Below, piece by piece: positions 2,546-64,000 of a stretch of DNA of 64,000 bases. The notes below the pieces were generated by a model. That model was not told the origin of the DNA. It ran no database searches and saw only the letters and a list, made by a program, of their open reading frames with translations. The first letter of the stretch is position 1. Every line of letters begins with the position of its first letter. The position numbers were made by a program, and so were the translations under genes. Source of the stretch: Struthio camelus (lineage: Eukaryota; Chordata; Aves; Struthioniformes; Struthionidae); contig NC_090956.1 in assembly GCF_040807025.1 (NCBI RefSeq), positions 1,538,517-1,602,516 of the forward strand, read 5' to 3'.

Positions 2546-2570
2546 GGGGCGGGGCGGGGCGGGGCGGGGC
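2546..2570 (+). promoter_or_regulatory. Five tandem GGGGC units (GC boxes, G-quadruplex-capable)
   Basis: Five exact GGGGC units lie about 100 bases before the ARHGAP17 start codon. They create overlapping SP/KLF sites and four or more G-runs with one-base loops, which could form a G-quadruplex in DNA or in a 5' UTR. Confidence 0.7.
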
Positions 2571-2671
2571 GGCGGGCAGGAGGCCGCGGTGAGCGGGCGG
2601 TCGCAGAGCTCCCGCGCGGCGTTTCGCGGTGTCGGTGCCCGGCGGGAGGCCGGGCGGGCGCGGCCGCCGCC

Positions 2672-2724
2672 ATGAAGAAGCAGTTCAACCGTATGAAGCA
2701 GCTGGCCAACCAGACCGTGGGCAG
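2672..2724 (+). CDS. ARHGAP17: ARHGAP17 coding exon 1
   Basis: The start codon follows GCCGCCGCC, a strong Kozak context. The 53 bases encode the first 17 residues of the BAR N-terminal amphipathic region plus two bases; the donor is GTGGGT. Confidence 0.96.
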
Positions 2725-41700: not shown

Positions 41701-44700
41701 TATTTCCTTCCAGTTATACTCGATGCATGACAAAAACTAAGCAGATAATTGCTGCTTCCAGTTACCATCTTCCTGTTACAGATCTGGGGGTATGAAATCC
41801 AGAGACAGAAGTGTATATAGTAACATCTATGAGTATCTAACTTCTGATGTGCCATGGCTTCTTTCCAAAGCCCATAAGCTGAGGTGGTGTTACCTGGTGC
41901 CTTCATGATAAGACTTCTGATTTGATGATGGTACAGTATACCACAGCAGATAGTAGAATGCTTTTAAAAAAAAGTGCCGTATAACATGTAGTGTAACGCT
42001 CATTTATTATCACTCATATCATGAATATTCAAGTAATGTGCTGTTTTGTTTTTATCCATTTATGCAAATATTAAATTGTTACCTAAATGTTAACTATGGC
42101 TAGACACATGCAAATTTATGAGCACTGACAGAAGGAAGAGAAGAAAATCAATTCAAGGTTCGCTGTCTTTAATGCAACAGGGATAAAATTTGCTTTTAGA
42201 ATTAATGTGTTGTGGACATTCTGAAATTCATTAGAATTTCGATCTGTTTATCCATAGTTAAATGGGGGTACTTTTCTTTTTTCTGCTTTAAACAATGCAA
42301 ACCATAGAAGTGTACATCCGGCAGCCTTATTTGATAGTCTGTCTTGAAGTCTGTAAAGGGACCTAGATGTTGTGTGTAATAAAAACAAAATTCATTTGGC
42401 AAAACATTCAAAGAGATACTCTGGTACCTAAGGAAATATATGTATTAACATTTAAAATTACTGAGTTGTTTGACCTCATTGTCATCAATGTCCGTCTTCA
42501 AATGTAATTGAATAGTTTGTCCCACTTATGTTTAGCTTACCCCTCTGTGTGGATAGGCCAAGAATCGTTGCATGTCTTAACACTTATGGTATTATATGCA
42601 GAAAGCTGATGCTTTCCTTGTTGCTGCTTTGCATGCTAAGCAACAGGGGTTGCACTTGTCTTTGTGGATTGCAATATCCAATTGTCCTGGTGCTTTAGTT
42701 ATCTGGAGCTGGCTTGCATGGTGTGTTTACTCTTTCTTCTTTCTGTAGCTTTGGTGTCAAGGTTATGGACTCCCAAGCGAATCCTCGGAGATGTGGCACT
42801 ATAAATAGAAAGCACACATCCCCAGCTTTCCAGCCACCCCTTCCACCCACGGAGGCTGGCATGCTGGCTCAGTCTGGAGTGGAGCAGCACTCACAAGCTT
42901 CTGTGGCTGAAACAAGCCCAGTGGGTGCTGGCTTTGCTCTCTCTGCTGGCACAGCAGAACAGTTACAAAGTCAAGGAAATGAGGATATCAGGTAAGAGGT
43001 ATGGCCCCTGCTGTCAGTGGCTTAGCAGGCTGCTTCAGCAACAAACTGATATGTCAAACGTACCTGCTTCATAAGGCACCTCTTCTAATTAGAATATATG
43101 TTGCCACATGTAAAGTAGCTTCAGATATGGGCAAAAAGCACTATGCAAGAGATCTCTAGTCACAGGTATTTACAACCTTAATTTGAATATCTGTTGTGGA
43201 ATTGATCTTCTAAAATAAGAGAATACTTGGGGGGGGGGGGGGAAAAAAGAGAATACTTGGAAAAAAGCTATCATGAAAAATACTAAAAAACTGCCCTTCT
43301 GTTATCCATATTGATTGTTGCGAGTTATACTCTAGAGGTGTCCACACAATATGACTGTCAGTTTCCTGCTGAAAGAACAAGAACTACCAGTGGCAATTCT
43401 AGAAACCTGTTGGTGCTTGTTTGGTTTTTGTACGTTATCTGGATTTATGTTGTCTTTGTCTGTAGCAAGTGTTAGTGATGACCAGACTTGCTTGCTAGCA
43501 AGCTGGAAGTCAGTTGATCAATTTCAAAATTAGTTTCTTTAGCATAAGCACGTATTCAGGGGTTTTTTTTTGCTACTTCATATTGAAATGCTGTGCAGTC
43601 ATATCCCAAGTATTAGTATACATGGACTCCAAGAGTAGTTGCTGTAGATTTGCATCTTCTCTTCAATAACATGAAAGCAGCACTTTGCTTTCAATAGTGA
43701 TGTGGTCTGAGAGAGATGACAGACCACATGTAAATGCCTGTAGTGCTCTTCAAATATCAGTCTCATAAACGTTAGTACAGTAAAAGATCGCCATGGAGTT
43801 CTACAAAGCATTGACTCTCCTGCATATAAGTTTGTTCTTGGAAGACATTTTTGCAAATATGTTCATGACAAAAGCCCTCAGATTTCTAACTTTGAAAATA
43901 CTTACCACGTTAGAGATGTTAACAGTTCAAGGGAATGCAAGAGTAGTGTAACTTTTCTGGCTTACCTAAACTTGTTTAAAGTGTATATTAAAACTTTTTA
44001 TTTTGTAAATACAGATGATTATTTAAGGGAGCTGGGGTTTTCTGGAGCTACAACTCCTCATTCAGATATCTCCTGTAGACTAACATTTCTTCCACAGGTG
44101 TCTTCTATGGTATAAGTTTCTAAAATAAAACTTTGAAAGTAGTGTCTAAAAGCTGCATTTAAAATCTGCACAAACTCTGCCTTCAAGTGATTAAAATTTA
44201 ATAACAGCGTCTGGAGAAATTAGTATTGCCATGTACCAGTAAAAGTAATTGAAAGGTGTTATCTGTCTTGAGATGAGTAAAATACTGCAACAGGCTCTAA
44301 GGACAGAAATGAATGAAGACTGCAACTGCATAGGAAGTAAGAGGAGGGGGCACTGCCCAGTACCAACTCAGTTGGCTCATATTTGAGTGCTTTATTTCCC
44401 TAAGTCCTGTTGTCTTCATGGCCAAAGGTCAGGAAGAACCTGACTTGAACTGACCTGCCTCTCAGAGGTTATACTGTGATAGCTCCCTCAGAGACAAAAA
44501 GCTTCTTAGACTGCCTTGATCCACTGCAGCAAGGTAAAAGCTAAATTTCGGGTAGAGTGGGGGGAAGACGTCAGGCAGTCAAACAAATAAAAAGAACCAT
44601 TGCTGTCTCCACACTCTGCTGTTGTGGTCTTTGGAGCCATTGGAAGCCCTCAGAAAGCTCCAAGGTCTTAAGCAGTGAGGACTGCATCTGCCTTGCCTAT

Positions 44701-47700
44701 ATACTATAGTAGCAAGCTGGTTGTGTTTTAAGTGGGGGGAGGGAGTTGTGTTGTTTGTGTTTTTTTTTTTTATTTTGTTTTCCTGACAGAGCTTCACAGA
44801 TTGCCATCACTTGGTCCTTAGTAGCTATATATACCAGATAACTGCTGGTGAATTTGATGTGATGCTGTGATAGAACATTTTGAAAAGGCTGTTATTGGGA
44901 TTATCATTGGTATATTTGGGGGAGGAAATGGGAGAATTAATTTTATGCGAACTTTCACGTTGAGAGACTTTACGTAAAGGATCTCCAAATGCACTGAGGA
45001 TGCTATAGCATGGAGACTGTACACTAGTTAGGAGTATTTCACTCAAACAGGTATTGTGATACTACAAAACTACTTGGATTTGTGATTTAACTGTTGTAAT
45101 TAATAATCTGTTGTACAGATTTGCCTGAAGCAAAGGGACTTCTCTGAAGAGTTCTAGGAGTGTTGAGTCTATTATTAAATATCAGCCAGTGCAGAAATTT
45201 TTCTAAAGGACTTGAGGTTCAGAACCAGAACACAGTTCATAATGTAAACCTGAATGGGTGCACTTCATCTGGGTGAGGCATTTTATGATCTCCTTCTAAT
45301 TTCTTCTTTAATTTTCAGTACCTCAAAACCTAAGGACACTGCATCTTCAGCTACTCCTCCACCCCCGAGAAACGGTGGGCATGCAGTCACTGTCCAGAAT
45401 CAATCAGCAAGTAGCACTAATCAGCTTTCTGTTAATCAGCCACAGAATGCAGCAGGTCCCAGTCCCCATTCAATGAGGCGAGGTGTGTTTTTAATTCAGT
45501 TTTCAAACCGCGAAGCTCCAGTTCTTAACGTACTGACAAGATGTTTGCTAAAGTCGCTTTACCAGTATCTCTTGTCACTTATTCCAGGCAATGGTTTAAT
45601 TCATCTTCATTTCACTAAGGCCTAGCTAAATGCATCTTTGGACTCTTTCATGAATGCTGGTAGTAATGTTACCAGTGCTATTTAATTAATTCACTTAAAG
45701 GCTATTGATTACCAAAATGCATACACAGGTTTACTAGCTTCATGTGGGTATCATTTTTATTTGATAATGCACCATTGTATTTTGATAATATACTTTTGTC
45801 CTACTAATTCATTTATTTCAGGAGTTTGCTTTGACAATACACAACCATGAAATGTCATCTCTTATCTTAACAGCTGTTAAGAAGCCTGCACCTGCACCTC
45901 CCAAGCCAGCCAATCCACCACCAGGGCAGCCAGGAAGCCAAAGTTCTGCCTCAGCTGCTCAGCCACCTTCTGTCTCTCCAAAACCACCTGCTAGAAGTTC
46001 TTCTCCTCCTGGTCAACACGCAAACCAAGGAGCAGCCCAGACCTCCACTTCCCAGGTTTCTGCACCTCGGAGATACTCCAGCAGCCTTTCCCCAATACAA
46101 GCTCCCAGCCACCCACCACCACAACCCCCAACACAGGCTACTCCCCCACTGCAGCCTAAATCAAACAGTCAAGCATCTCCTCCTGCTGCACCCAGCAGTG
46201 AGCATGGACCAGAGCAGCCCTGTTACACTCCTCCACAGACTCCAACACCACCTGATACACCCCCTCTAGGGAAACACAATACTAGTTCTCCATTGTCACA
46301 GCCACAGTCATCTACTCAAGAAACCTCACAGTCTCACTCTCCCCCTCACACTGGTACACTGCCAAGGCCACGGCCAGTACCAAAGCCCAGGAACAGACCT
46401 AGTGTTCCACCTCCGCCTCATCCTCCTGCTTCTCATTCAACTGGAGATGGTGGTATTACGAATCCCACGCAAACAGCTTCCAAAATAGTAACAGGTAAGT
46501 GAATTATTTTATCATACTCGGTGTCTCCTGAGGGAACGGAAATGAAGAAAGTAATACCTGTAGCTGTAAGTTAGCCTTCTGGGGGGAAACACAGAAAATA
46601 CAAATAACAGTTAAAATACTTAATTGCTGATGCCCTGTTAAAATACCCACACCTGTTGTGGTGCACCAGGATTTTGGGCAGCATCTTCCATAGTGAAGGT
46701 CTTCCTTGGGGCTAGAGGGGAGTATGTATTAGTCTGCTTTATTTTTTCCTGCTTTGGAAGCAAAACACTATTACAGCAACAAAACTATAGGGCTTTCTCA
46801 GGCCTCTACATTATGGCAATCTGTTATGCTTATGCATCTGTTGCCAAAAAGGCAAATCATTGGAGGAGGGAGATACAGCCCGAGGACAGTGTATTTCGGC
46901 ATATACAGAAGATACACTGGCCACTTTTGGCATTTTATTTTGGTGCTTTTGATACCCATGGTCATAGAGAAGATACTAATGCAGTGAATGTTTTATTTTG
47001 AAAACTAAGCCTTCCATGTGCCTTTAAGTTGGACAGAGAGAATTTACAGAATCAAATGTATTAATTATGTGTAATAGGTCAATATCTAGATACATTTTCA
47101 TATTTGGAACACAACCTTGTTTTTTCTGTTCTGAGATGTGAAGTATAGACCACTTTTCTGTCTTCTCTTAGGAACTTCATGAAGCTTGCAGTTAGTTTGA
47201 TAGGGATAACGTTCATTTAAATCTTGAAGTGAAAACTGCTGCTGACAGGATAAAAACTAGCAGATCTTGAAACGTTCTGCTGAGTCTCTGCTTATTTTAG
47301 GCACTTTTGAAGGAAAAGGCAATGAATGTAAGAGACTAATGCTTTTAAATGTACTTATACTCAGTAATGATTAAAACTTCCCAATGATGCTGCAGTGTCT
47401 CTAGAATAAGACTAATGTTTTGGAATGCAAAGTATATTCTGATGCCTAACAGCTGTACCCCATGATGCCTTCACAGGTGGGGATGGTTACTGCAAATAAG
47501 GTTTGTACTGACCAGAAACATGCAATATAGCTAAAACGCTCCTGCACAGCAATATTTTATTTGTAGCTTTATTTTGTATATGTGCTTTGGAATATGTGCT
47601 CTCTGTCAACTCTGCATTTTATCTCATTACCACATATCATTCTGTTTGTAAGATATCTTAAGATCTATGCTTTATTTTAATAGTCCTGTGAACATTGTTT

Positions 47701-50700
47701 AAGTTAATCCTTAGTCATAAAAATAACCATATCCCTTAAATAAGTGAATAACACTTAAAAAGTGTTGGTGCAAAGACACCAAAACTATACCACTCCAGGA
47801 GTCAGGAATGAAGCAGTGACCTGTTCAAAATAGGTGTGTTGTCATCGGTGCAGGCAAATGTTGCAGCTCGTGTTTTTTCTTCAATTCAGTGTTTTACGAG
47901 TTTTTTTTTTGTTGTTGTTGTTTTTTTTGATGTAGCTTTCACTTGAGGATTTCAGTTGTTTTTAACTACATGGGATTTATTTGTGCAAAATACACGCTCG
48001 TGTGACTAAATCCCTTTGCAGAAAAGCACCCAACAGCATCTCTGCATTCTGGCATGTTTGCATTTGCATTCTGTCAACCCAAGCCTCACTAATAGTACTA
48101 GTCTGTTCAATCGCAACTGCCAAACAATACATATTAATAATCTTACTATTCATATATAATGGTTTAGAGATGCTACCTTTTTAAGATGACGACTGCATGA
48201 CAGGCTGAAAAAATTGAGGCTGCATTGCTGAATTATCTCAAGTTGTGACTATTCGCTTACAGGAAAGATACTGATATTAGTATTAGATGGAGAAGGCAGC
48301 TTGGAAGTACAGTTTTTAAATAAGAGAAACTAGCAATAAATGAGCTTTTAAGCAACTGAAAAGTAGCTCTGCTTTTTAAAACAACAAACTCTTACCTGAT
48401 CATACTCTTGTTCTTTTGTCAGTATTTCTAAAGTAAAACAGCAGTTTATTGCAAAACTGAAGTCAGAAATAAGGCTAGGGTTTGGATCTTTACAGCACTT
48501 GCACATGAAATGAGACTGGAAACCTTGCTGATGAGTCGAACTTCAAAAAGAGGCTTAAGCTTATTTTCTAAGTCATGTTTCATAGGTTGACTGCCTTTGT
48601 TTTCATTTTGGAATTTTCCTGGTTCTGATGCAAAAGCTTTAATGATAGCAGACACTGAAGCAGAATTTGTCTTACCCCAGTTAAACAGGAGAATTATTTG
48701 CCCTTTAAGTAGTATCCAGCTGCTATGCAGAGAGCTGCTTCATTGAAGGGCAGAGAAGAGGGGAGTTAAGTTATACAAAAGAACCATCTGAGATAGGACA
48801 GTGATTGGCACAACTGCAACTATATATGGATTGTGAATTACTACAACTTAAATGGTGAGCTGCAGGGATAGCTCCTTTTCAATTCATTTAAAGGCATAAC
48901 AGAGGTACACTGGACTGTCCTGTAGTTTGGATGCGTTTTAAAAAAATGGTGAAATCAAGGTCTGATTGTCAACTTGTACTGTTAAAACTGAAAAGACTTG
49001 GTATTATTCCTTTAAAGTGAAAGAACCTTAGCAAATTGGCCATGCAAGCTATGTAAGGTAAATAATATGAAAGCTGTCATGCAGCAGAGTCAGTAAAGGA
49101 AAGTTAACACTTATCAGATTTGCTAGAGAATCCATTAAGGAACCCAGAAAAACTAGTACATTTTGCAAAAAAAAAAAAAAAAAAAGAGAGAGAGAGAGAA
49201 GTTGAAAGTTGAACTGATACTTAGGTTTACCTACAGCAGTACACTCAGTACAAGATCATCCGTTTTTTCCAGATGAATCTCTTTTTTGATATTTGCTCAG
49301 ACTTAACACCACAGCATATTACATAAGAATATCTGCTCTAACATTTACACATGCATATATTAGCTTTTATTTTTAAACACTGATGCTATAAACTGCCTCA
49401 GCTAATTTAGTGTGAAGTAACTGTTTTTAATTTAACCTTAAATAGCAGAGCAAGGGAAAATATACGGAAGTAAATGTCATAATATCAGAACTTGAAATCC
49501 TGAAATATTTTCAGGATACAGTTGAATTCCTTTGTCCACGTACTGGACTTCAGTAATGCTTCACATCCTATTTATGGTTTTAAAGTAATGAGCCCTAGGA
49601 AAGAATATTCTAATCAAAAATTTTATTAAACAATCTAGATGTTTGACCATCATTCAGTATGAACTGTATTGGAAAGTTTGATGGTAAGGAAAAGGCATAT
49701 GATTGGCCCAAAATGTTGCTAATTCATAATCATGTATGTGCTAATGCCCACTACTAACCTGTCATAAGTAACACTGCTTGCTTGCATTCTCATTAGTGTA
49801 GCATGCGAAAGGAATGGCTCTGTTTTTATGCTTGCTCTTACATTAACATACTAAAAGTATTGAAGTCAAGAACGTATAAAGTTGTTCATGTTTTGACTGG
49901 CCAATTTCATGTCGTATGTTTTCCACTTCATAGACACTTATACCTGGAAATTCATGTGTTTTATACAAAGGTTCATTTTGTATTTGAAGTAGCTGTATCA
50001 TTTGTTTGTCATGATCAAATATTCCTTTCCTGTGGCACCTCACATTTACAGTTACCTCCTTTTCTGGTTCACTTTTAAATATGCAGTAGTGGAAGGGATA
50101 ACTTCTGTGCCTGCCTCTAAAGTTGAAGTAGTCCTTTTCAACTGTACATTAAATGAAAATCAATAGTACAGGTAGGTAGGTAGTTATTAGGGAGAGTTCA
50201 GTGGCCCAGCTACTTAGATTCTGTGCTCTTCTTTTCTACAGTCAAGCTCAGTGTAGAACATCTTAAGCAGTGGATCGTTATCATAGTACATCAGATAATG
50301 ATACTAAAAATGCCTACAGAAAGATAAAAAGTTTAAAATTAACTAGCTGGAAAAGCACTTACTTTTTCATCTGCTGTAGAAACAAATCCTGTAGTTGGGA
50401 TAAAAGGGAGCTGCTTATGTTATGAAAATTTGGTTTTGTGGATCAGAAACTTATTTTAAATGCATGAATGTGAGGTTAGGTGAGAAGGTTTGGTTTTAAA
50501 GTATCTCCAGTAATTGTTTTCTTCATTACTATCAAAAGGCCTACTGAACAGTGTGACCTATGTGTCTTCTCCCGGAAGACTGTTTACGAAATACAGTTCA
50601 GTAACCAGGACACTGATTTTCAAAGTGACAATGGGGGCTGGGTAGAAGAATCTATTTAAGATTCACCTAGATGATGGATTTAATGAGTTGTAATGATACT

Positions 50701-52179
50701 GATGGTTTGTTCTATGCCTTCTGGTTGATTTCTTTTACGACTGAAATACTAACATTCTTAGCAGAATCTGGTACTCTTCTCCCAAGACTGTGATACAAGA
50801 CTTGAGAGAAGATGTATAGTTCAAACCTCCCAAGAAAACATAAATCCTGGAATTATGTTATAGGAAAGGCTATAGAATCTTTGAGTTCTGGTAATATGGA
50901 TGAGAACATTTACCACTCCTCTGCAAGGCAAGCCAGCTGGTGTCAGACACAATACAAGAATGCTATCTACTAAATTAACAGTATCATTCAATACAAAGTT
51001 ACGGCAATTCACTAGTGAACTGTTTATGCTTAGACAATGGGACCCTTATTGAAATAAGGGAGCAGGGGAGGCTGCACTCAGACTTTAATTATATTTCTGC
51101 TTTTGCCTCTTTCATGTCATTTAGCACAGAAGCTTTCAACTTAGCACAAATTATTTTATAAATGTGTAGGTTTCAGACTTAATTTTTGAGATATGGTTCA
51201 AGGTCTTTAAAAGATGCCACCTGAATTTAAAAAGAAGTCTCTGTTTGGATTCTCTGACTTAAGTGATCTAAATGATTTTCCATTTGGAGCAGCTGCTATG
51301 TTGCAATAGGCGATGTTTCTCCTGCAAAGTCTGTGGCATATTATAAATTCGCTTTCCAAAATACTGACTTAATATTTTCATTTACATATTGTGAGCTGTT
51401 CTCGATTTTTCTGGTCTTCTAACTACTAGTGCAGTCAGTCACCAGAAATGCAATATTTGAGGTCATTGGCTTGGACAAAATTCTCCCCCCTCATTAACAG
51501 AGGGCAAAGAATACGATGTTCCCTGTAATCCACAGGAAAGGGGTTTAGTATGCGTTCAGTTTAAATTTGTTTGCTGTTTTTGTGGCAATGCCTCCTTTTG
51601 ACACCGTACATGTTCCCATCACTTCTGAAAAACCTTTGGTGGTGTTTACCTGGCTGATCATCTAGATGCCAGACTTCTTGCTGAGTGACCAATCCTGATT
51701 TGATGTCAGTGTCTGAAATGAAGTATCACTTCTACAGGGCACTGAGGAATCTGATATCAAATTATACTTTGCTTTCTTCCATTCTTGAAAAAGAAATGTT
51801 TTTCTCTGTTATGTACATGACTAAAAAGGTATGTAGGAGAAGCAACCCAAACATAAGCTTTATTTGTTTGGCTTAGCCTTTTTGTGTTCATGTGTGCGCG
51901 TGCACATATGTGCCAGCCCTGCGTTTGAAAAGCCCTTGTTGATCTGTCCTTTCCGTTTTCTTTCTAAGGAAATGTATCAGAAACACAATATTTAATAAGA
52001 TGTCACTGTCCAGACCGCTAAATTTCCTGTTCCATTTTTTTTGTGCAGATTCTAATTCCAGTATTCAAGAACCACTTCAAAACCCTTCTTCAGAGCTTCT
52101 TACAGAGACAGCAAGCAAGGAACTGCACAACCACCTCATGCTAGATATTGACAATGATACAGAAAGCACTGCTCTGTAA
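2672..52179 (+). CDS. ARHGAP17: ARHGAP17 (RICH1), BAR-RhoGAP protein, complete coding sequence in 20 exons
   Basis: ARHGAP17/RICH1 is a GTPase-activating protein for Cdc42 and Rac. It binds membranes through its BAR domain and works at tight junctions and in vesicle traffic. I placed 20 coding exons totalling 2652 bases (883 residues plus stop), close to the roughly 880 residues of the human long form. Residues about 1-245 (exons 1-9) form the BAR domain, starting MKKQFNRMKQLANQTVG. Residues about 250-445 (exons 10-15) form the RhoGAP domain, with GLFRIAAGASK carrying the expected arginine finger near residue 289 and VLGPNLLW later on. Residues about 500-840 are proline-rich with many SH3-type PxxP motifs, mostly in the 621-base exon 19. 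The C-terminus is DNDTESTAL, a class I PDZ ligand as in human. All exon phases agree and no frameshift is seen. It is divergent from LCMT1 and convergent with the next gene. Confidence 0.97.
8039..8057. repeat. Poly-C run of 19 bases
   Basis: An uninterrupted C homopolymer in ARHGAP17 intron 1, the longest of several in the window. Length calls in such runs are prone to sequencing error. Confidence 0.9.
10805..10852. repeat. Tandem duplication, 24-bp unit, two copies
   Basis: The word GGATAATTGAAGGAGAAT occurs twice in direct tandem with a single-base difference in the flank (ATGCTGG versus ATGTTGG). It looks like a local replication duplication. Confidence 0.8.
14976..15115 (+). repeat. Diverged interspersed repeat, copy A
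   Basis: This stretch can be aligned by eye with 21276-21400. Shared words include GCCAAGTTATTTT/GCCAAATTATTTT, then C(A/G)ATT(C/T)T..TGAGCTGT, and a GGGA-rich block ending in GAGCTG. Two copies in one intron suggest an old transposable element, whose family I do not recognise. Confidence 0.45.
21276..21400 (+). repeat. Diverged interspersed repeat, copy B
   Basis: Partner of the copy near 15.0 kb, in the same orientation, with small gaps. No terminal repeats or target-site duplications were identified. Confidence 0.45.
22000..22135. other. CpG-rich patch in ARHGAP17 intron 1
   Basis: A local cluster of CpG dinucleotides (runs such as CTCCGGAAGCGCGCAGAGCC) in an otherwise AT-rich intron. 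It contains CCGGAAG, an ETS-type core. It could be an internal promoter, an enhancer or a decayed GC-rich insertion. Confidence 0.5.
26580..26720. other. CpG-rich patch just upstream of ARHGAP17 exon 2
   Basis: About 140 bases with dense CpG (AGCGCGGCGCGTTAGCG and similar), ending about 150 bases before the exon 2 acceptor. An alternative promoter or alternative first exon is possible but unproven. Confidence 0.45.
26872..26911 (+). CDS. ARHGAP17: ARHGAP17 coding exon 2
   Basis: A 40-base exon encoding R-AEKTEVLSEDLLQ after a long T/C tract and TTTAG. It ends in phase 0 with donor GTATTG. It matches the human BAR sequence almost residue for residue. Confidence 0.95.
26912..31027 (+). other. 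ARHGAP17 intron 2
   Basis: A 4.1 kb intron. Apart from an A/T homopolymer region at about 29332-29356 and the 14-base C run next to the exon 3 acceptor, I see nothing beyond AT-rich intronic sequence. Confidence 0.7.
31008..31021. repeat. Poly-C run next to the ARHGAP17 exon 3 acceptor
   Basis: Fourteen C bases end six bases before the first base of exon 3 and form most of its pyrimidine tract. Confidence 0.9.
31028..31132 (+). CDS. ARHGAP17: ARHGAP17 coding exon 3
   Basis: 35 codons, IERRLDTVRSICH to GTDADKRH, in the BAR domain. The acceptor CAACTAG directly follows a 14-base C run that serves as the pyrimidine tract. The donor is GTAAGT. Confidence 0.96.
32002..32078 (+). CDS. ARHGAP17: ARHGAP17 coding exon 4
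   Basis: 77 bases, KKLPLTALAQNMQEGS to DETLLG, in the BAR domain; acceptor CCATAG, donor GTAAGT, ends in phase 2. Confidence 0.95.
33185..33296 (+). CDS. ARHGAP17: ARHGAP17 coding exon 5
   Basis: 112 bases encoding KMLDTCGEAENKLAMELSQH and EVQIEKEILDPLNQLTE. The acceptor is TTAAAG; donor GTAAGT, phase 0. The end (LNQLTE) departs from the human reading as I recall it, while the rest is well conserved. Confidence 0.94.
33497..33573 (+). CDS. ARHGAP17: ARHGAP17 coding exon 6
   Basis: 77 bases, SEIPNIQKQRKQLAKLVLDW plus DSARA, in the BAR domain. It follows a 200-base intron; acceptor TTTTAG, donor GTAAGA. Confidence 0.95.
34385..34496 (+). CDS. ARHGAP17: ARHGAP17 coding exon 7
   Basis: 112 bases, RYNQAHKTSGTNFQVHPSK to EAGNKVEQCK, in the BAR domain; acceptor CCACAG, donor GTAGGA, phase 0. 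Confidence 0.95.
35553..35621 (+). CDS. ARHGAP17: ARHGAP17 coding exon 8
   Basis: 23 codons, DQLAADMYNFVSKEGEYAKF then FVM, in the BAR domain; long pyrimidine tract, acceptor AAAG, donor GTGAGT. Confidence 0.95.
35784..35865 (+). CDS. ARHGAP17: ARHGAP17 coding exon 9
   Basis: 82 bases, LLEAQADYHRKALAVLEKVL then PEIQAHQ, closing the BAR domain. It lies only 162 bases after exon 8; acceptor TCTCAG, donor GTAAAG, phase 1. Confidence 0.95.
37972..38099 (+). CDS. ARHGAP17: ARHGAP17 coding exon 10
   Basis: 128 bases, KWTEKPAFGTPLEEHLKRSG to LLETGMKEE, the start of the RhoGAP domain; acceptor AACTAG, donor GTAGGC, phase 0. Confidence 0.95.
38520..38631 (+). CDS. ARHGAP17: ARHGAP17 coding exon 11 (arginine finger)
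   Basis: 112 bases beginning GLFRIAAGASKLKKLKAALD. The Arg of GLFR (residue 289) is the catalytic arginine finger position of RhoGAP domains. Acceptor ATGCAG, donor GTATTG, phase 1. Confidence 0.96.
39208..39289 (+). CDS. ARHGAP17: ARHGAP17 coding exon 12
   Basis: 82 bases, GALKSYLRELPEPLMTYSLY and DEWTQAA, containing the conserved RhoGAP YLRELPEPL block; acceptor TTGCAG, donor GTAAGT, phase 2. Confidence 0.96.
39731..39811 (+). CDS. ARHGAP17: ARHGAP17 coding exon 13
   Basis: 81 bases, IQDQDKKLQELWKICNRLPK then HYHANF, in the RhoGAP domain; acceptor TTGCAG, donor GTATGA, phase 2. Confidence 0.95.
40643..40756 (+). CDS. ARHGAP17: ARHGAP17 coding exon 14
   Basis: 114 bases, RYLIKFLAKLAQNSDINKM to VLGPNLLWAKNE, containing the conserved RhoGAP block NVAIVLGPNLL; acceptor TTGTAG, donor GTAAGT, phase 2. 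Confidence 0.96.
41115..41206 (+). CDS. ARHGAP17: ARHGAP17 coding exon 15
   Basis: 92 bases, SLAEMAAATSVHVVAIIEPI then IQHADWFFPG, the end of the RhoGAP domain; acceptor CCACAG, donor GTAAAT, phase 1. Confidence 0.95.
41354..41510 (+). CDS. ARHGAP17: ARHGAP17 coding exon 16
   Basis: 157 bases from DQDFNVSGAFVAIPA to MAVMEGDLLKKE, the linker after the RhoGAP domain, with the conserved block SGTLERKRP. Acceptor TTCCAG after a T run, donor GTATGC, phase 2. Confidence 0.95.
42749..42991 (+). CDS. ARHGAP17: ARHGAP17 coding exon 17 (probable cassette exon)
   Basis: 243 bases from SFGVKVMDSQANPRRCG to EQLQSQGNEDI, with a PPLPPT motif. It starts and ends in phase 2, so skipping it removes exactly 81 residues and keeps the frame. 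Human ARHGAP17 is known to make a long and a short form differing by a segment of about this size. Acceptor CTGTAG, donor GTAAGA. Confidence 0.93.
43217..43260. repeat. Direct repeat flanking a G run
   Basis: AAGAGAATACTTGG occurs at 43217-43230 and 43247-43260, 30 bases apart, with 14 G bases (43229-43242) overlapping the end of the first copy. It fits slippage or duplication around a G tract. Confidence 0.8.
45319..45482 (+). CDS. ARHGAP17: ARHGAP17 coding exon 18
   Basis: 164 bases from STSKPKDTASSATPPPPRNG to AAGPSPHSMRR, a Ser/Pro/Asn-rich linker. Acceptor TTTCAG, donor GTGTGT, phase 1. It joins in frame from either exon 17 or exon 16. Confidence 0.94.
45874..46494 (+). CDS. ARHGAP17: ARHGAP17 coding exon 19 (proline-rich)
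   Basis: 621 bases, about 207 residues, starting AVKKPAPAPPKPANPPPG. It is extremely rich in Pro, Ser and Gln with repeated PxxP motifs, the SH3-binding region of RICH1. It ends NPTQTASKIVTG; acceptor TAACAG, donor GTAAGT, phase 1. Confidence 0.96.
46495..52048 (+). other. ARHGAP17 intron 19 (5.5 kb)
   Basis: A large AT-rich intron before the terminal exon. It holds an A run plus GA microsatellite at 49167-49199 and a short (GGTA)-type repeat near 50171-50182. Open frames up to about 100 codons here have no recognisable homology. Confidence 0.7.
49167..49199. repeat. A run followed by GA microsatellite
   Basis: About 19 A bases followed by seven GA units in ARHGAP17 intron 19. It could be the tail of an old insertion, but no element body is recognisable next to it. 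Confidence 0.85.
52049..52179 (+). CDS. ARHGAP17: ARHGAP17 coding exon 20 (terminal)
   Basis: 131 bases after GTGCAG, from DSNSSIQEPLQ to the end ...LDIDNDTESTAL and a TAA stop at 52177-52179. The S/T-A-L ending is a class I PDZ-binding motif. Confidence 0.96.
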
Positions 52180-53626: not shown

Positions 53627-53866
53627 CTAAATTTGGTGTTTATAAGCCAGAATTCTAGTTCTGTGGCTTAAACTGACCTTTGTCCCTAAAACTGTAGGCA
53701 GTGTACCTGAATCCATAGCAGGTTGTAAAGGATTTAAATACATTTTCAGAAATTCTTCTGGACTTGCACATTCTTCAGTGTTACACAAATAGTTAATTGT
53801 CTCTGCTGGGATTAGCAGCTCGGGTGCAAGAGTATGTAGATTGTTATTCAGATCATCACTGTCATC
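53627..53866 (-). CDS. BLUF-like gene, coding exon 6 (terminal)
   Basis: 79 codons and a TAG stop. It starts DDSDDLNNNLHTLAPELLIP, runs through EEFLKMYLNPLQPAMDSG and ends ILAYKHQI. Acceptor TATCAAG, phase 0. This region lies C-terminal to the BLUF-like domain. Confidence 0.8.
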   Translation of the reverse strand, partial: DDSDDLNNNLHTLAPELLIPAETINYLCNTEECASPEEFLKMYLNPLQPAMDSGTLPTVLGTKVSLSHRTRILAYKHQI

Positions 53867-56800
53867 CTTGATAATAAAGAGTATATTTCAGTACAGTTAA
53901 AATAAAAACAGAGCTATGACACAATTACAGTGAAGGAAATTTGCCAAGAACAGCAGGGCTAGAGTTGTTATCCCTTTTTTTTAACCAAATATAACTTTAT
54001 CCTTTGTTCTTAAGAGTACACAGCAACAAGGAAAGTGTAGCAAGCAACATATTACTTCAGGAGTGACATTTACATGACTTTAAGCTATGTTCATACAATT
54101 GGCTAGTTCAATAAAATGGCAGCACCAAATAAGCTAGCATAAGTCTTAAAAAAAAGAGGGGGTGGGGGAATAAAATGATGGGTTTCCTTAACGTTTTAAC
54201 ACAGCTTCTAGAATCCTTGCAGGTATATGTGCTTGTAAACTGTATTTGAAAGACAAGAGCATCTGCTTACTGGTGTGGATTTGGGAGGTAAATCAAGTAA
54301 ATTTCTTATAGTGTAAATATTTAAAGTTTACCTCAAACATTTTTGGAACATAGGCTGCCAGTTTGAAGAGGAGAGTCAGACACTCTGTGACTACCTCTAC
54401 TGTAGACTGTGACTGTGTTGCATCTTGCAGGTATGTCACAGGAGGCGTCACTGTTGTAACATACCAGTCTGGGAACAGTCTGGTTGGGATGTTATGCGAC
54501 ACCACTAAAACTTTAATTTCCTGGAGTAAAGCACTGAGTGGAAAGAGCGAATTCCATCCTTAAGTACAGCAACGAGTTTTTACCAGATGTTCAAGTTTCA
54601 TAAACTAAGCATTGATCTGTTTGCATTCCCAGAGCTCTGCTAGAGCATTATATGCATACAGCATTATCATAGCACCTTCCCCCCAGTCCTTGTAAATTTT
54701 GGATCTAGCTACAAGAAACTTTTCCATATTGTACTACAACATCCTGTGCAAGGTTATTAAGCAGACTATGAAGGAACAATTCTGGTCAAATGTCACAGTA
54801 AGAAACAGGCAAAAGAGCAGCAGGGTTTAATAAATGCAAGAGTATGATGGTAGCTTTCTTTGATACAACTCCTTCTACAGACAAAATTGCGTGGCTTTCA
54901 TGAGGTCCAGTTTTCAGTGAATAAATAAGAGGCCATAGAGGAACGTATGTATTGGTTAAGCTACAGAAGATGATAATTGGCTGAACTCTGGTGACGGGTA
55001 GGCAGTGTTGAAAGGGAAAATAACAGGTAGGAAGGCAGTGACTAATACTCTATAGATGACTTTAGAATTCTAGTATGTATACCTACAAATGTTTACAAAG
55101 CAGGATACAGAAATCATGCAGGCAATTGGAATTAAGGAATGAATTTTCCTATTTTCTAAAACCTTTCAACACTGTTTGAAGTCTTGGCAACTTGAAGATG
55201 AACTTCAATGCAGAGGACTATGCAAGAGTCCGCTGTCACTTAGCCAACTGCTCCCTGCATACAGAAAAGATGCATGTCATATTAACTTGAAAATGGTATC
55301 TGCACTATGGGCCACAGGCATTCAGTGGGAGAACAAAATAGGTTGTTATCATAGGTAATGTTCAGTTTATCCTTAAAGGAAGCATTCTACCACTGCTGTT
55401 GCAAATTTTCTGTCAACTAAGCTAACGTGAAACACTTACCTACGTCCTTCATTTTGGAGAGAAGCTAAATCTTGGATGATAAGATGTATTGTACCAATGC
55501 AAGACTGCAAAGGAAAAAGGAGAATTTTTATGAAATTGCATATTACAAAATAGTTGTGAAAACAAAAATTCATCAGCTGCACTATAAATGGACTTTCCCT
55601 TTGAGTTGCAGACACAGAAGACAGACCAGCACCACCACATCGTTATTAAGGTCCTAGCTCTTTCTTTTTAACCCAGCGTATGGAGTAGGTGGTAACTATT
55701 CATTTGTAGCTAGCTGGATCTTAGAACTCAAGTTTGCATAAATGTGAATCAAGCCACTTGATCCCAAAAGGGGCTTACATAACTTACCTCTACTACATGA
55801 AGAACACAACTGGAATAGAGAAGTAGTACACCTGAGACTTGTTCTCCTGAGTGGCATTTTGATGCATTTTCAAACAACCTTTTGTGGTAACCTGTTTCAA
55901 AAGTAAAATTGGCAGTTTGTCATATGGCTTATAGTGAAAGTCCTACCAAGTTAGCATTGTATGTCCTGTTGCAGATTCTTCTCTCTGAGTCTGTCTACCA
56001 CAGACAACAGATTCATAGATTATGCTTTTATTATTCAGAGGAAATGTAAAAGCACTGTTAACATGGGAATCTTTTCTTGACATATGCACCAACACAATTC
56101 ATATTAGCTCCTAAAGCTGCACCAAAATCTGCAATATTTGCTTTGAGTGGCTGCAGTGTGAAATTCACATTAGCGTTTGTTTACAGTAAAGATGTAGTTA
56201 CATCTTTGTTGCTGTAGTTGCTTTTAAGTACATTACCTGAAGGCCCTGAACATAGAGCACTCAGAAGTTTTGCATGTGCAGTCTAATTCTTGCTCCTGCT
56301 TGACATTGGTACTAATACAGTTGCTTATTAAAAAAAAAAAAACTTTTTGTATCCCACTCATCAGAGAAAACATTCAATATACATTAATTACTTTGCTGAG
56401 AAACTCATACTTGAAAGTTGGTTGTAAAAGCAGTATCATACTTTGAGAATGAATTCTCTTTTTCCCTCAGGGTATATAATACTTGTGCCTTATTTGCTAA
56501 GGAAGGATCCTAAGTGATAATTCTCTTTATGTTATTTAACAAAATGGTATCTTTTAATTTTCTGCGCTACTGCAAGGCTTATATACATCACTGCTGTATG
56601 CTGTTCATACTGTCACTCCAATATACATGCAATGCAATGAGCATGATTTTGGTATGTGGCAGTTTGTTACAATTATGCGCAATTTACAGTTTTGATGTAG
56701 TCAAAGAGATTTTATAAAAGATGAAAATGAAATACAACAATAGAATGTCACCTAAGAGATCACCTAGAATACCAGCATGTATTTTGAAGGTAATTTGTTG

Positions 56801-57906
56801 TTTTCAACAGTTAAGCTATATTTAAGAATCCTTTTCAAAACTTGAATTGAGGATAAAGTCAGCTCCCTCTGGTGGACAGCACTAGAATTATCCTTTACAG
56901 TAAAGGAAAACTGTTAAGTAGTCAGTGAAACCAGAACTTCAGTATAGTATAGGAAGAAATTTGCAAGTTAATTTCTCGTGTCTTCTCAGTTCAGTGTCGT
57001 GAAACACCGTTATGAGCTGTGCACATCGGTTTCACTTTGTATGTGTTTTGGTATTCTAAATCCTAAAAGGAAGTACAGTAATACTGCAGCTGTGCCTGCT
57101 GGAGCCACCCCCTGCCCTGAATGAACTGAATTTTCAACGATACTGCTGCCTAACTCAGTAGTTAGTTCCTTTATCTTAAAAATAAAGGTCCTTATGGGGC
57201 TGGGTATGAAACCCCTAAAATATCACATCCTGGAGAGAGAGAATGCGAGCGCATTGCACACCAATGCAAGTGCAGCAGGTACCAGCATTTACTCGGGGTG
57301 CGAGGGGGGTCTTTAGGATGAGTAAGAGCGCAGATCGACAAGGCGCGTGCCGCTGCAGCGGGGGCGGCAGGTCGCAGAGGAGGGTCTGCGGGTGAGGGCA
57401 CGCCTGGGATCACATCTGCGCAGCACACTTTGCACTACCGGACCGCGACAGCTTTGCCAGCGAGCCCAGCGATGTTCCCACCGCCGGGTCCTCCTCCGCC
57501 TTGATTCCCAGCCCCTCCTGGGCGCACGGTGGAGATGCTTCAGCAACCCAGGCGGCGAGCCGAGCTGCGAGGCGCTCCCAGGTAGGATACACGGGCCGTC
57601 CCAAACCCCCTGCGGCCCAGGGCTGCGGGCACCTACCTGTGACCGCCGCCGCCTCGGCCCCCTCGCCCAGCTGGGCCACCACCACCAGCCTGTGGAGCGG
57701 GAAGCGGCTCTGGGGACAGAGAGGGGCGAGGCTCGCTCAGGCCGCCCCGGCCCTCGGCCCTGCGGGCCCGCCGGCGGCAGAGCCGCCCGCCCCACCTGGC
57801 CCGCGCCGTGCAGCCGCTCCAGCCGCGTCGCCAGCAGGCTCCGCCGCTCCAGGGCCGCGGGCCCCGCCGAGTGTCGCCGCCCTCGCGGCGGGTGGGCGCC
57901 CGACAT
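53627..57906 (-). CDS. BLUF-fold protein, probably TEX47 family, six coding exons
   Basis: I assembled a 264-residue protein from six minus-strand exons: 57796-57906, 57637-57709, 55788-55891, 55440-55504, 54332-54533 and 53627-53866. They total 795 bases, and every junction agrees in phase with GT/AG consensus. The order of elements fits a BLUF domain: LHRLVVVAQL (42-51, first strand), SGVLLLY (81-87) with VLHVVE (91-96), a helix TIHLIIQDLASLQ, EIKVLVVSHNIP (123-134), then RLFPDW (136-141), as in the BLUF RxFxDW ending. In vertebrates this fold and length fit TEX47 (testis-expressed 47), which I recall as about 250 residues. The family name is an inference from memory. The Tyr, Asn and Gln flavin contacts of photoactive BLUF proteins appear to be Val47, His75 and His93, so light sensing is unlikely. 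Exon 1 is GC-rich with a short variable N-terminus. The function is unknown. Confidence 0.8.
54332..54533 (-). CDS. BLUF-like gene, coding exon 5
   Basis: 202 bases, ALLQEIKVLVVSHNIPTRLF then PDWYVTTVTPPVTYLQDATQ and on to AAYVPKMFE. The acceptor CACTCAG at 54534 was chosen over the nearer CCAG because only it keeps phase with exon 4 (completing a Ser codon). Donor GTAAAC. Confidence 0.83.
55440..55504 (-). CDS. BLUF-like gene, coding exon 4
   Basis: 65 bases, SCIGTIHLIIQDLASLQNEG then R plus two bases. A strong pyrimidine tract and TTTGCAG precede it; the donor is GTAAGT. Confidence 0.82.
55788..55891 (-). CDS. BLUF-like gene, coding exon 3
   Basis: 104 bases, GYHKRLFENASKCHSGEQVS then GVLLLYSSCVLHVVE, the core of the domain. 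Acceptor AAACAG, donor GTAAGT, phase 0. Confidence 0.85.
55892..57636 (-). other. Intron 2 of the BLUF-like gene
   Basis: 1.7 kb, AT-rich in its left part and rising into the CpG island on the right. I saw no further exon that would fit between exons 2 and 3, whose phases already agree. Confidence 0.7.
57637..57709 (-). CDS. BLUF-like gene, coding exon 2
   Basis: 73 bases encoding SRFPLHRLVVVAQLGEGAEA then AAVT plus one base. Acceptor CCCCAG after a C/T tract, donor GTAGGT. It carries the first beta strand of the fold. Confidence 0.78.
57796..57906 (-). CDS. BLUF-like gene, coding exon 1
   Basis: 37 codons from the Met at 57906-57904 to GAGQ, donor GTGGGG, phase 0. It is a GC-rich Arg/Ala/Gly sequence without a recognised domain. 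The start is the first Met of this open frame; it could move if transcription starts elsewhere. Confidence 0.7.
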
Positions 57907-57960
57907 GGCCCGGAGAGCCGCGGGGCGCCTGCCGGGGGGCCGCGACGACCTGCGCAGGCG

Positions 57961-58318
57961 GCGAGGGGCGGGAGGGGCCGCGGGGGCACGCGGAGCCGCT
58001 GAGGGGCGCGAGGGGCCGCGGCGGGGCGCGGAGCCGCTGAGGGGCGCGAGGGGCCGCAGCGCGCGCGGAGCCGTTGGCGGGGCGCGAGGGGCCGCAGCGG
58101 GGCGCGGAGCCGCTGAGGGGACTGAGGGGCCGCAGCGCGCGCGGAGCCGCTGAGGGGCGCGAGGGGCCGCAGCGGGACGCGGAGCCGTTGGCGGGGCGCG
58201 AGGGGCCGCAGCGGGACGCGGAGCCGTTGGCGGGGCGCGAGGGGCCGCGGCGCGCGCGGAGCCGTTGGCGGGGCGCGAGGGGCCGCGGCGCGCGCGGAGC
58301 CGCTGAGGGGCTGCGGTG
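57961..58318. repeat. GC-rich minisatellite, unit about 38 bp, about 9 copies
   Basis: The word CGGAGCCG recurs at 57991, 58029, 58066, 58105, 58142, 58180, 58219, 58257 and 58295, giving steps of 37-39 bases. Units share GAGGGGCCGC and alternate between CGCTGAGG and CGTTGGCG variants. The array starts about 55 bases upstream of the minus-strand start codon of the BLUF-like gene, inside its CpG island. Confidence 0.92.
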
Positions 58319-59792: not shown

Positions 59793-62700
59793 CTAAAATG
59801 ACAATAAATAGTGAGGTAAAAATGTCACCAGTAGAACAAATCCCAGGAATGTATCAGTATGATCCTGTACAGTGTGTTTTGATATTACTGTATAAAAATG
59901 CATCATCATTCATTAAATGAATACAAAAGCCCCACCAAGATGTAGGAAGCCCTTCAAATAACAGCTGCTTGGGGCTGTAGTGTCTGTTTCATTCTTCCCT
60001 GGAGATCTGAATTCAGATTCTGCTGTTCTCAATATTTTAAGAAACAGTAACAGTAGACCAAACCTAAAAGCTTATCTGTGACTGCTTGACGCCAATAAGC
60101 TTCCATTTGCTTGTGCATGCTCTGGTCCATTTAGGGTTACTCCAAGCCACGCATTTGTAAATGGAGTTCTCCCAGCTTTGGTGTTGGTTCGGGCATATGT
60201 AACTAAATACTAGGAAGGTAATGACACCAAGTGAGACTTCCCAGCAGTTGGGAAATCTGCGCAATAACTCATTAACTTACTGGCCTTTTCAGTATCTTTT
60301 TTTAGGTCTCAGGAATACACAGCAAAAGCTGCATAGTTACATAAACAGTGTCCCAAGCTTAGCAAAAACAAGTGATGATAATCATGGCTGGAAAGTGCAG
60401 AATGAGTTGCTATGCATGTGGGTACCTAATACCGACAAGTACAAGTTTTAAAAAATGTAAATCCTCCTTCACTGATCTGTCAAGAACTCCGCTCAGGGCT
60501 CTGTGTTCTCCCTGCTGCTAGAGCCGATCAGAAAACATCACTGAAAAACAGAAATGGAATTTCATGAAAATAATTGTGACTGTCTTCCGCCCCCCCCCCT
60601 TTTTTTTTCAACCAACTCTCCTTGCAGCAGGTGCAAATAGCACTAGTCTCTAGCGCAGGATAATGGCCATGGCTCTCTACCCCATCTATCTCCTTTCCTG
60701 ATTTCAAGCATATGTAATGCCATCAAGAGATGTAAAAGAAGCTAAACTTCTGCTTAGCTAAAACTGTCACGTAAAACCTCTTAGCGTACCCTGAAGATAC
60801 AGAAATCCAGAGGAAGCAGTTTTAATGTTTCTTGTCTTCAGAGCCTTTACCTAATACTTAGGGTTGTTAATTGTAGGTGTTACTGAGTATGGTTTTGGAG
60901 CACTTACATTTATTATCATTTGAACTATTTTCAGAGGCAATGCTTATATCAATCTGGAAAGCTGGACGCTCAGCTTCACACACTCCATTTCCAGCATCAG
61001 GGGAAGTGCTGACTGCTAGGTCTTGCTTGACTGGTAGATCCCCACGTGTGAACCAGGTAAGCCGACTTATCTGATGGCATGAAGAGTGGTGTTAAAGAAA
61101 ACTGCTCTCATGGTTGTTTAAAGGACTACCTCAGCAGTATAGCAGCTTGGAGAGAGAATACTTTTCTTTAAGGGATCAAAATCTGTTCCCCAGCTGTGTT
61201 GGAGCAGGTGAGCAGTTAAGTGCTCTGTTGGTAACTACAAAAGTGATGGCTGCCACTGGAGTTCTGCATGTTGATTCTAGTTTAGTATGGAACGTGATGG
61301 CTGTTTATACAGATATACTCCCTGAAGGATGGTATTCTTCACTTTTTGTTACTGAGGATGAGGTGTTTCAGCATGGGTCCACCACTGGATGGAGACTGAG
61401 AGCAGGTCAGTGGGAGAAGGCCAAGAAGAGAGCAAAAGAATGGAAATCGTGGCCAGTGAGGAAAAATTCAAAGAACCGGGGTTGTTTAGACAAGAGAAGA
61501 CAGATGGGAGATATGATTATTTTCTTCAAATATGTAAAAGACTCATTAAGGAGGAATGTTCTTGATGTCCATGGCTGGCTGACAGTAAGGAGTGAGCACA
61601 ATTTGAAGCTAGAAAGATACAGGTTGGAGATGAGGAAAAACTTCTACTGAGGGGGCAGATAAGCTCTTGAACTGATCGCACACCTCCCCAGGCACTTTCC
61701 ATCACTGGGGATTTTTAAGAATAAGTTAGCCACAGGTCTTTCAGAAATGTGTCAGGTATAGTTAGTGCTATCTTGAAACAAGAGGATGCACCAGCTGTAT
61801 GATTTCTAAAGGTCCCTTCTGGCCCTACCTTCTACCGTTTCTGTTTTTCTGTAGCCTTAGTGTGTCTATAGAGAATAGTCAAACGGGCACAAACCTGTTC
61901 CAGAGGAAGTGTGCTCTCTGCCCTTGATTTCTCTTTTCTGCAAGGAAAAATGGTTCCTCACTAAATTAGTAAGAGAGTTGATAAAGATGATCTAGAAGCT
62001 GGAATCTCTTGGAAAATAGAGGGAAAGAGCTAATTTGTCATGGGTTAAACATACATGTTTGGAATTAAGATTGGCTCTTAGCATCTACTGTTGACCGCTC
62101 GCCAGGGTGGGACTCTGGATTTGTGGGACCAAAATCTTAAATGGCAAGGCAGCAGGATGCTGGAGCAGAGAGGGAATTGCATTACAAGTTATTGCAAGCA
62201 TTTTCATAAAAGAATGAATGGAAACCTCAGTTTCCACATTACTCATCTCTACATTATTCCCGTGGATATAATGTGGGGCATCCTGGAAACAATTTAAAAG
62301 TAATGAAAGAAATCTAAGGGAGTGACGCACCATTTCTTCCGAGGGGGGTTCTGTGAGCATGCTCACAACCAGCACAGTGATTGTAGAAATCGCAGCTAGG
62401 ACCATGGAGAAGTAGAGATAGTGCATGTATTTCACCACACCTGGTCTGATGTCTGTCTCTCCACACTGGGGCTCTGGATAAATGAAGTCCAGCACCAATC
62501 GAATGACGCCCAGCAGCAGCCCAATCACCAGGCCCCAGAATGCACCCTAAGAAATTAAGGTTATTCTTTATTGGAACAAGAAACAAACATCCAGTCTGTA
62601 CCCATGTGTGTTCTTAGGCTATAAACTGGCCAGGCTTTCTCCTTGCTGTGTTAGGGGGCCTTCCCTCTCTTCTTTTTCCTGCTCTTGCTGTTTATGTAGA

Positions 62701-63540
62701 TCCATTGGTGCTGTTACAGTAACCTCGTATCTCTTCTGTGTGGGGTCAAATGGATCCTTACTTCTGGTATAGAGGGAAGATGCAACATCTTATGCCAGAA
62801 TACTTGGAAGAGTGATATTTGCATCCTAATGGTTGTCTTAGCCGTGGGGTGCTTATAGCTAACTACTCTCTACCTAACAGAAGCCCTTTAGGGAAGTTTC
62901 CCAGATACTCCAGATCCTAGCTTTCCCCTTTTCCCAGCACCATTTCCAGTTACTTATTGGAGTAACTGGACTCCTACTGCCATTTCGTCTGCCTCCTTAA
63001 CTCCCTGGGCTCACTTTGCTCTCTGCAGGCCCCCTGATGCAGATGGTACAAGTCCATGTAATAAATGACTGCATGGCTAATCAGCCCCTTAAAGGCTCCA
63101 AGATTTGTGAAGGACACTCTGCAATTGAGTAATGCAATCATCCCACTCTTTCTGAAATGACAGTGGAGTCTTTGGAAAACAGCAGGGAATACTCCCTCCT
63201 GCCATGGGCTGATTGTTGCTTGGGCTTTGCAGTGGACTGGGTGCATTCATTCTCCCAAACACCACAAGAGGAGCCAGAACTGCAGCCTGGGGCTGTGGTT
63301 TGAACTGCAGGACTCTCATGAGGACAGAGAGACCACAAAGGCAACTGTGCTGAGCGCAGCAGAGTTGTTACCTTTTCATTCGCTCTTTTCCAGAAGCAAC
63401 CCAAAATAAACACCATTGCCACTGGGGGCTGCAGATAGGAGCTGATCGACTGCATGTAAATAAAGAGCTGCCCTCCCTGGCCAGCCTGTACCAATGGGAT
63501 CCACAGGATGGATACCACAGTGAGCAGCAGCACAAAGATC
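59575..63540 (-). CDS. SLC5A11: SLC5A11 (SMIT2), sodium/myo-inositol cotransporter 2, last four coding exons
   Basis: SLC5A11 is a plasma-membrane transporter that couples Na+ to uptake of myo-inositol. The exons 63372-63540, 62331-62546, 60908-61070 and 59575-59792 give the C-terminal 254 or so residues; the rest lies past the right edge. Family signatures are [88 protein letters not shown] and WLCGMERK. At least five hydrophobic segments fit late transmembrane helices, the last being [16 protein letters not shown] at the C-terminus. TEPPSxEM, LTWFTR and the final WAYFA-type end separate it from SGLT paralogues, and the multi-exon structure separates it from SLC5A3. All junctions agree in phase. 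It is transcribed toward ARHGAP17. Confidence 0.94.
59793..60907 (-). other. SLC5A11 last intron
   Basis: 1.1 kb between the last two coding exons, with a C run followed by a T run near 60590-60608. No other feature was recognised. Confidence 0.7.
60908..61070 (-). CDS. SLC5A11: SLC5A11 exon (second from last)
   Basis: 163 bases starting [20 protein letters not shown] and ending [10 protein letters not shown] plus one base. It is a hydrophilic loop matching the human LTWFTR region and then diverging. Acceptor CCATCAG, donor GTAAGT. Confidence 0.9.
61071..62330 (-). other. SLC5A11 intron containing a CR1 remnant
   Basis: 1.26 kb intron. Its centre is occupied by a plus-strand CR1-like 3' fragment (listed separately). 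The plus-strand open frame at 61114-61650 runs into that repeat and is not a host gene. Confidence 0.7.
61420..61850 (+). mobile_element. Degenerate CR1 LINE 3' end (sense on plus strand)
   Basis: The sequence follows the old sauropsid CR1 tail in order: a stretch like 'GGGAGATATGATTATTTTC' then 'TTCAAATATGTAAAAG', 'GATGAGGAAAAACTTC', 'CCATCACTGGGGATTTTTAA' and finally 'AAAGGTCCCTTCTGGCCCTA'. Its translation has the usual relic pattern of a retroelement 3' region with stops. The match is from memory of the repeat family; no reverse transcriptase domain is visible. It sits antisense to SLC5A11 inside an intron. Confidence 0.7.
62331..62546 (-). CDS. SLC5A11: SLC5A11 exon (third from last)
   Basis: 72 codons from [20 protein letters not shown] to TEPPSEEM; acceptor TTCTTAG, donor GTGCGT. 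Two transmembrane helices flank a loop with Cys28 of the exon. Confidence 0.94.
62547..63371 (-). other. SLC5A11 intron
   Basis: 825 bases between the third and fourth exons from the end. I see only moderately GC-balanced intronic sequence with no further exon. Confidence 0.7.
63372..63540 (-). CDS. SLC5A11: SLC5A11 exon (fourth from last)
   Basis: 169 bases starting with the end of an Arg codon, then [20 protein letters not shown] to FWKRANEK. Acceptor TTGCACAG, donor GTAACA, phase 0. It covers two transmembrane helices. Confidence 0.93.
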
Positions 63541-64000
63541 CTGTGCAAGAAAAAAGATGCTGTTATTGTTCGCTCAGACCTTTCTTTTCCGATTGTTCAG
63601 ACTGCAAGTCTCGTAGCGAGAGCTCTTGCAATAAGAGGGCTTCCACTCCAGTCCTCCAACAAACCTGTGCAATATGTTTCTTTCCAGAACTCAGCCCTTC
63701 TTCGCCTGTATTGGATCCCTTGCCCATTTTGCATCACTCAGGTTTCCCCAGGCATCATCTCTGGCTGTTCAATTCATGCCTCTGTCTGTGTGTCTTGGTG
63801 CTATGAAATCTTGGTTTTACTCTACTAGTGTTGACTGACTGAGCCAGATTCTCCCCTACCATCTAATAAGAAGAGTGCAAGAGTGGCTCTAAAGAAAAAT
63901 GCGGTCCGATTCTTCTCTCATTTTTTCCCGTTTGATGCGGAGCAACAGATATTGAAGATACTGCACAGTGGCAGCAGGGAGCAAGGTGTGCTGACAAGGT
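63541..64000 (-). other. SLC5A11 intron (partial, right edge)
   Basis: From the acceptor of the exon at 63540 to the window end. I looked for the preceding SLC5A exon on the minus strand and did not find it. Confidence 0.65.

Follow-up and report, generated by a model that had tools for sequence, protein, structure and literature searches.

TEX47 of bovine sperm has been described (PMC11779644) as a sperm-specific tether/tetherhead (T/TH) subunit of inner dynein arm f that is orthologous to MOT7 and interacts with the f-beta linker. According to PMC10266980, MOT7 occupies the middle of the T/TH stellate, the structure that anchors arm f, and between them these two papers have already presented TEX47 as the MOT7 counterpart. 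In sheep, the gene lies at OAR4:72880869-72895751, within the span given for ZNF804B (PMC8445479), and PMC6834745 lists the human gene among those of chromosome 7, between ZNF804B and STEAP1. Here we describe a TEX47-family gene in 64,000 nucleotides of ostrich (Struthio camelus) DNA (assembly GCF_040807025.1, contig NC_090956.1, forward-strand positions 1,538,517 to 1,602,516; hereafter the window). Its six exons, the replacement of the flavin-site residues expected of a BLUF domain and the presence elsewhere in the genome of a second gene built on the same plan are direct observations, while the history and the function that we propose for it draw on its neighbours and on the published structures.

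Results

A six-exon TEX47 gene in the ostrich window

The gene runs on the minus strand from 57906 to 53627 of the window, and its six exons splice into a coding sequence of 795 nucleotides (nt), or 264 amino acids plus a stop codon. All five introns have GT-AG boundaries, and the exons end in phases 0, 1, 0, 2 and 0, so that the six in-phase exons and 264 residues proposed in a first-pass annotation of this DNA were found just as described. The product matches the Pfam TEX47 family (PF24787) over residues 42-229 at 229.5 bits, against a gathering cut-off of 25 bits (E = 3.5e-68), which confirms the gene far beyond chance. In the PDB, the top-ranking sequence is bovine sperm TEX47 (also called C7orf62; chain 9fqr_H0 of the sperm doublet model; E = 3.4e-47), and together these two matches bear out the family assignment of the first-pass annotation. 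The second match is a Chlamydomonas chain, 8glv_D9, aligned to residues 20-238 (E = 4.5e-10), and the third row is a dehydrogenase (E = 0.15). The label of the algal chain reads inner-arm dynein f/I1 light chain and does not name MOT7; we read the chain as MOT7 because PMC10266980 puts MOT7 at arm f. Identity to the ostrich protein amounts to 81 of 202 aligned residues for bovine TEX47, which shares the motif HNIPTRLF, and to 55 of 192 for the algal chain.

We also assessed the exons one by one, in part by tblastn of bovine TEX47 against the 64-kb window. Exon 1 (57796..57906, 111 nt, residues 1-37) supplies the ATG start and rests on its reading frame and GT donor, and its residues 20-37 fall inside the alignment with the Chlamydomonas chain. 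Exon 2 (57637..57709, 73 nt, residues 38-62) carries Val47, and exon 3 (55788..55891, 104 nt, residues 62-96) carries Gln79 and His93, all three at positions discussed below. Exon 3 was matched by bovine TEX47 at E = 9.1e-7 and by the Pfam model in a whole-genome profile search at E = 1.3e-7. Exon 4 (55440..55504, 65 nt, residues 97-118) was placed by frame and splice sites. Exon 5 (54332..54533, 202 nt, residues 118-185), which contains HNIPTRLF, and exon 6 (53627..53866, 240 nt including the stop codon, residues 186-264) gave bovine tblastn E values of 7.3e-16 and 9.4e-11 and whole-genome Pfam E values of 2.1e-17 and 2.3e-8, respectively. The best E value from 22 control queries on the same 64 kb (20 shuffled versions of bovine TEX47, plus the reversed bovine and Chlamydomonas sequences) was 0.21, compared with 9.1e-7 or better for bovine TEX47 at exons 3, 5 and 6. 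Exons 1, 2 and 4 were accepted for their frame and splice sites, for the matches obtained at the protein level and because the second copy is built in the same way.

A second TEX47 gene of the same structure

When the Pfam TEX47 model was run against the 1.45-Gb assembly, all six candidates matched: three are exons of the window gene (contig C15) and three lie at C19:12386929-12388143. Bovine TEX47, searched against the whole genome, recovered the same two loci only (6 matches from 11 candidates scored, E up to 10). Neither query found a third copy in the genome; in the two known copies, exons 1, 2 and 4 went undetected by both, and a lone short exon could therefore escape such searches, while an intronless copy of the ZNF804B type should not.

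The C19 gene, recognized by its Pfam matches and its structure, comprises six exons at C19:12386620-12388690. Its exon-end phases are again 0, 1, 0, 2 and 0, and its exons 2, 3 and 4 are 73, 104 and 65 nt long, exactly as in the window gene. Intron boundaries 2 to 5 fall in identical alignment columns in the two copies, and boundary 1 lies beside an alignment gap (columns 38 and 45). The predicted C19 product scores 222.7 bits against Pfam TEX47 (E = 4.2e-66) and matches bovine TEX47 in the PDB at E = 9.5e-38.

Both copies lie in what looks like one duplicated block

The window gene is converged upon by a plus-strand RhoGAP gene at 2513..52179 (limits given by its first and last coding open reading frames [ORFs], 2513-2863 and 51943-52179, rather than by exons), which we take to be ARHGAP17; the assignment of its end ORFs is part of the same assumption. 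Four of its exon pieces, when joined, match Pfam RhoGAP at E = 2.1e-35; searched singly, three of its ORFs and a proline-rich ORF gave no Pfam match over the cut-off. A genome search with the window RhoGAP protein, in which 150 of 249 candidates were scored, returned 14 matches: four on C15 (the gene itself), four on C19, four on C1 and one weak match each on C4 and C2. The C19 gene (C19:12370764-12374970, plus strand) has four exon matches with pieces 58-71% identical and a best E of 1.1e-12. Beyond it comes the second TEX47 gene, which runs on the other strand, so that the two genes stand tail to tail just as their counterparts in the window do. Four of five window RhoGAP pieces match the C19 stretch at 67-85% identity, and the fifth matches just outside it. 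The last C19 RhoGAP piece matched by this comparison, at C19:12375602, is ~11 kb from the second TEX47 gene, and a proline-rich ORF ends ~6.5 kb from it; we presume that this ORF is the tail of an ARHGAP44-like protein and that the C19 RhoGAP gene is ARHGAP44-like.

The second TEX47 gene is flanked on its other side by a ubiquitin hydrolase gene of the USP type (Pfam UCH) at C19:12393137. Apart from itself, this gene is matched best in the genome at C15:882130-883257, a site ~0.7 Mb away from the window TEX47 gene (6 matches, 21 candidates scored). Three gene pairs, RhoGAP, TEX47 and USP-type, are thus found on the same two contigs, which points to one old block duplication, and judging from these neighbours the two TEX47 genes look like its relics. 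In this model, a block consisting of a RICH-type RhoGAP gene, a TEX47 gene and a USP-type gene would have been duplicated long ago, yielding both TEX47 genes. ARHGAP17, ARHGAP44 and SH3BP1 form a vertebrate trio and USP31 and USP43 a pair, gene sets that would fit the early vertebrate genome duplications; the block duplication probably dates to those events.

The matches on C1 mark a further RICH-type RhoGAP locus (C1:58758728-58760347; four exon matches, pieces 51-68% identical), presumably SH3BP1-like. The whole-genome Pfam search found no TEX47 match on this contig. A third ancestral TEX47 copy may have been lost there.

Relation to mammalian TEX47

The first-pass annotation placed human TEX47 elsewhere, on chromosome 7; PMC6834745 agrees, and PMC8445479 likewise puts the sheep gene at another site. 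Sheep TEX47 sits inside ZNF804B, whereas the window gene has six exons and lies between a RhoGAP gene and an SGLT-type symporter gene; the ostrich genome also has a second copy. As the sheep and human positions match neither ostrich site, the mammalian position is probably derived. Retroposition would be a plausible route for the move. No title among the open-licence PMC papers listed for C7orf62 mentions a retrogene. The window gene had been suggested to be either an ancestral multi-exon copy or a separate paralogue, and each suggestion holds in part, in that there are two multi-exon copies, both in apparently duplicated neighbourhoods.

We then asked whether the window gene and mammalian TEX47 are one-to-one orthologues, the C19 gene being a sister copy that mammals have lost, and judge the odds to be even. 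The window protein is marginally closer to bovine TEX47 than the C19 product is (78 of 200 aligned residues identical for the latter), the bovine query scores the C15 exons above the C19 exons, and within the four-sequence alignment the motifs YLxDxTQxQS and YLCN are confined to the window and bovine proteins. Against this, the best four-sequence tree joins the two ostrich copies to each other (support 3.3/44), and no alternative topology was rejected.

Both copies appear to be maintained, as judged from their open frames, proper splice sites and pattern of codon differences. From exon 2 on, the copies differ at 106, 81 and 148 of 201 codons at the first, second and third positions, respectively, with fewest differences at the second; the third-position count is affected by unequal G+C content at that position (GC3). 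One of the two could instead be a functionless duplicate in decay, and it is indeed uncertain where the C19 gene ends on its 3' side: its last exon can be read as one ORF (338 codons in total, stop included) or as a shorter exon followed by a seventh. However, the frames are open over six exons with GT-AG sites in both genes, and both products match Pfam TEX47 at better than 1e-65, which makes decay improbable.

Resemblance to BLUF photoreceptors

The stress that the first-pass annotation laid on BLUF turned out to be weakly founded. Pfam BLUF (PF04940) is the next family after TEX47 for the window protein, at 13.2 bits (E = 0.097), short of its gathering cut-off of 25 bits, and bovine TEX47 has been published as an axonemal subunit (PMC11779644). 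The Chlamydomonas sequence barely passes the same cut-off (25.9 bits), and a profile of three TEX47/MOT7 sequences reaches nine solved BLUF-cyclase sequences in the PDB at E = 0.077-0.45, values that are not significant. The resemblance to BLUF photoreceptors such as the photoactivated adenylyl cyclase 5mbj extends over ~100 aligned residues with the same order of core motifs. TEX47 may share the BLUF fold, as judged from this sequence resemblance together with the published description of MOT7.

BLUF photochemistry needs a Tyr, an Asn and a Gln at the flavin site. When aligned with the BLUF cyclase, the window protein has Val47, Gln79 and His93 at these positions, bovine TEX47 has Leu, Ala and His, and the C19 copy has Phe, Ala and His. 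The Chlamydomonas chain (Tyr, Glu, His) keeps only the Tyr; the window protein neither keeps it nor passes the BLUF cut-off. The His at the Gln site is common to all four sequences examined. We therefore consider it very improbable that the window protein works as a blue-light sensor, binding flavin through a BLUF domain and tuning sperm dynein by light as proposed for MOT7, even though a blue-light-dependent regulation of arm f by MOT7 is reported in PMC10266980 and BLUF ranks second in Pfam. With the BLUF cut-off missed and all three flavin-site residues replaced, the sequence makes a light-sensing role unlikely.

Two further observations concern this resemblance. In PMC8445479, blue-light photoreceptor gene-ontology terms attached to sheep TEX47 enter an argument about adaptation, though the bovine protein lacks the flavin-site residues. 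The TEX47/MOT7 profile also has a weak match (E = 0.43, profile positions 60-214) to PDB 9y6s_7M, a 254-residue chain named Tudor domain-containing protein, which may be a relative or a chance hit.

Finally, the possibility that the window gene is itself a retrocopy was rejected, as it has five introns.

Other features of the window

The TEX47 gene had been placed between ARHGAP17 and SLC5A11. The domain families of its neighbours agree with this setting, while the gene names themselves are presumptive. On the side away from the RhoGAP gene, two minus-strand ORFs at 62085..63596 contain the C-terminal exons of an SGLT-type sodium symporter, which we take to be SLC5A11; when joined, these two pieces match Pfam SSF (sodium:solute symporter) at E = 1.3e-17 and SGLT1 chains at E = 2e-44. 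A G+C-rich tandem array with a 38-base unit and 9.2 copies occupies 57963..58311, beginning 56 bases upstream of the TEX47 ATG, and can also be described with periods of 76 and 114 bases. The start of the TEX47 gene lies within a G+C-rich stretch (G+C = 0.858 over 57750-58249). An Rfam scan of the window returned 0 matches.

Discussion

We put at roughly 80% the probability of the joint reading that the window gene encodes the TEX47-family counterpart of MOT7, with a structural T/TH role in the sperm flagellum, and that it is one of two block-duplicated genes. By analogy with the published bovine and algal structures, the place and partners of the product are most likely those of its relatives. 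The protein would be a structural subunit of the CFAP43/CFAP44 tether/tetherhead complex in the sperm flagellum, where that complex would keep inner dynein arm f attached to the doublet microtubule and the protein would touch the linker of the f-beta motor.

Several results weigh against parts of this reading. At the level of the gene, the bovine TEX47 query left exons 1, 2 and 4 unmatched in the 64-kb window, and the Chlamydomonas query reached E = 0.52 at best against the window DNA, with one match in exon 6 and another at an unrelated place. At the level of the block, 99 of the 249 candidates in the RhoGAP search were unscored, and the C1 RhoGAP is about as close to the window protein as the C19 RhoGAP is (both best E = 1.1e-12), so that, taken by itself, the RhoGAP pair does not favour C19 over C1. 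The GC3 of the two copies differs (0.47 versus 0.77), which affects the third-position counts, and approximately unbiased test p values of 0.25, 0.52 and 0.58 for the three topologies of four sequences reject none of them with respect to orthology to mammalian TEX47. At the level of function, PMC10266980 calls TEX47 a potential MOT7 homologue, yet reports seeing no MOT7 equivalent in the human axoneme; the role may accordingly be confined to sperm.

Neither the protein family nor its axonemal location is new, and the function is an ordinary one. What this analysis probably adds is the history of the gene, with a second copy that was not expected and a neighbourhood that is probably ancestral. 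We saw no description of this TEX47 gene pair among the open-licence PMC papers listed. That both multi-exon copies stand tail to tail with a RICH-type RhoGAP gene suggests that TEX47 originally occupied this position and that mammals, with the gene inside ZNF804B, have a derived arrangement. A fuller scenario, which we offer tentatively and rate at somewhat under even odds, is that early vertebrates had two TEX47 genes behind two RICH-type RhoGAP genes and that the ostrich lineage kept both, one perhaps serving sperm flagella and the other epithelial cilia, while mammals vacated both sites in favour of a single relocated copy inside ZNF804B, which may be a retrogene that took the place of its parent. 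Species with two TEX47 genes may use one of them outside sperm, which bears on why the human axoneme examined to date has no MOT7 equivalent.

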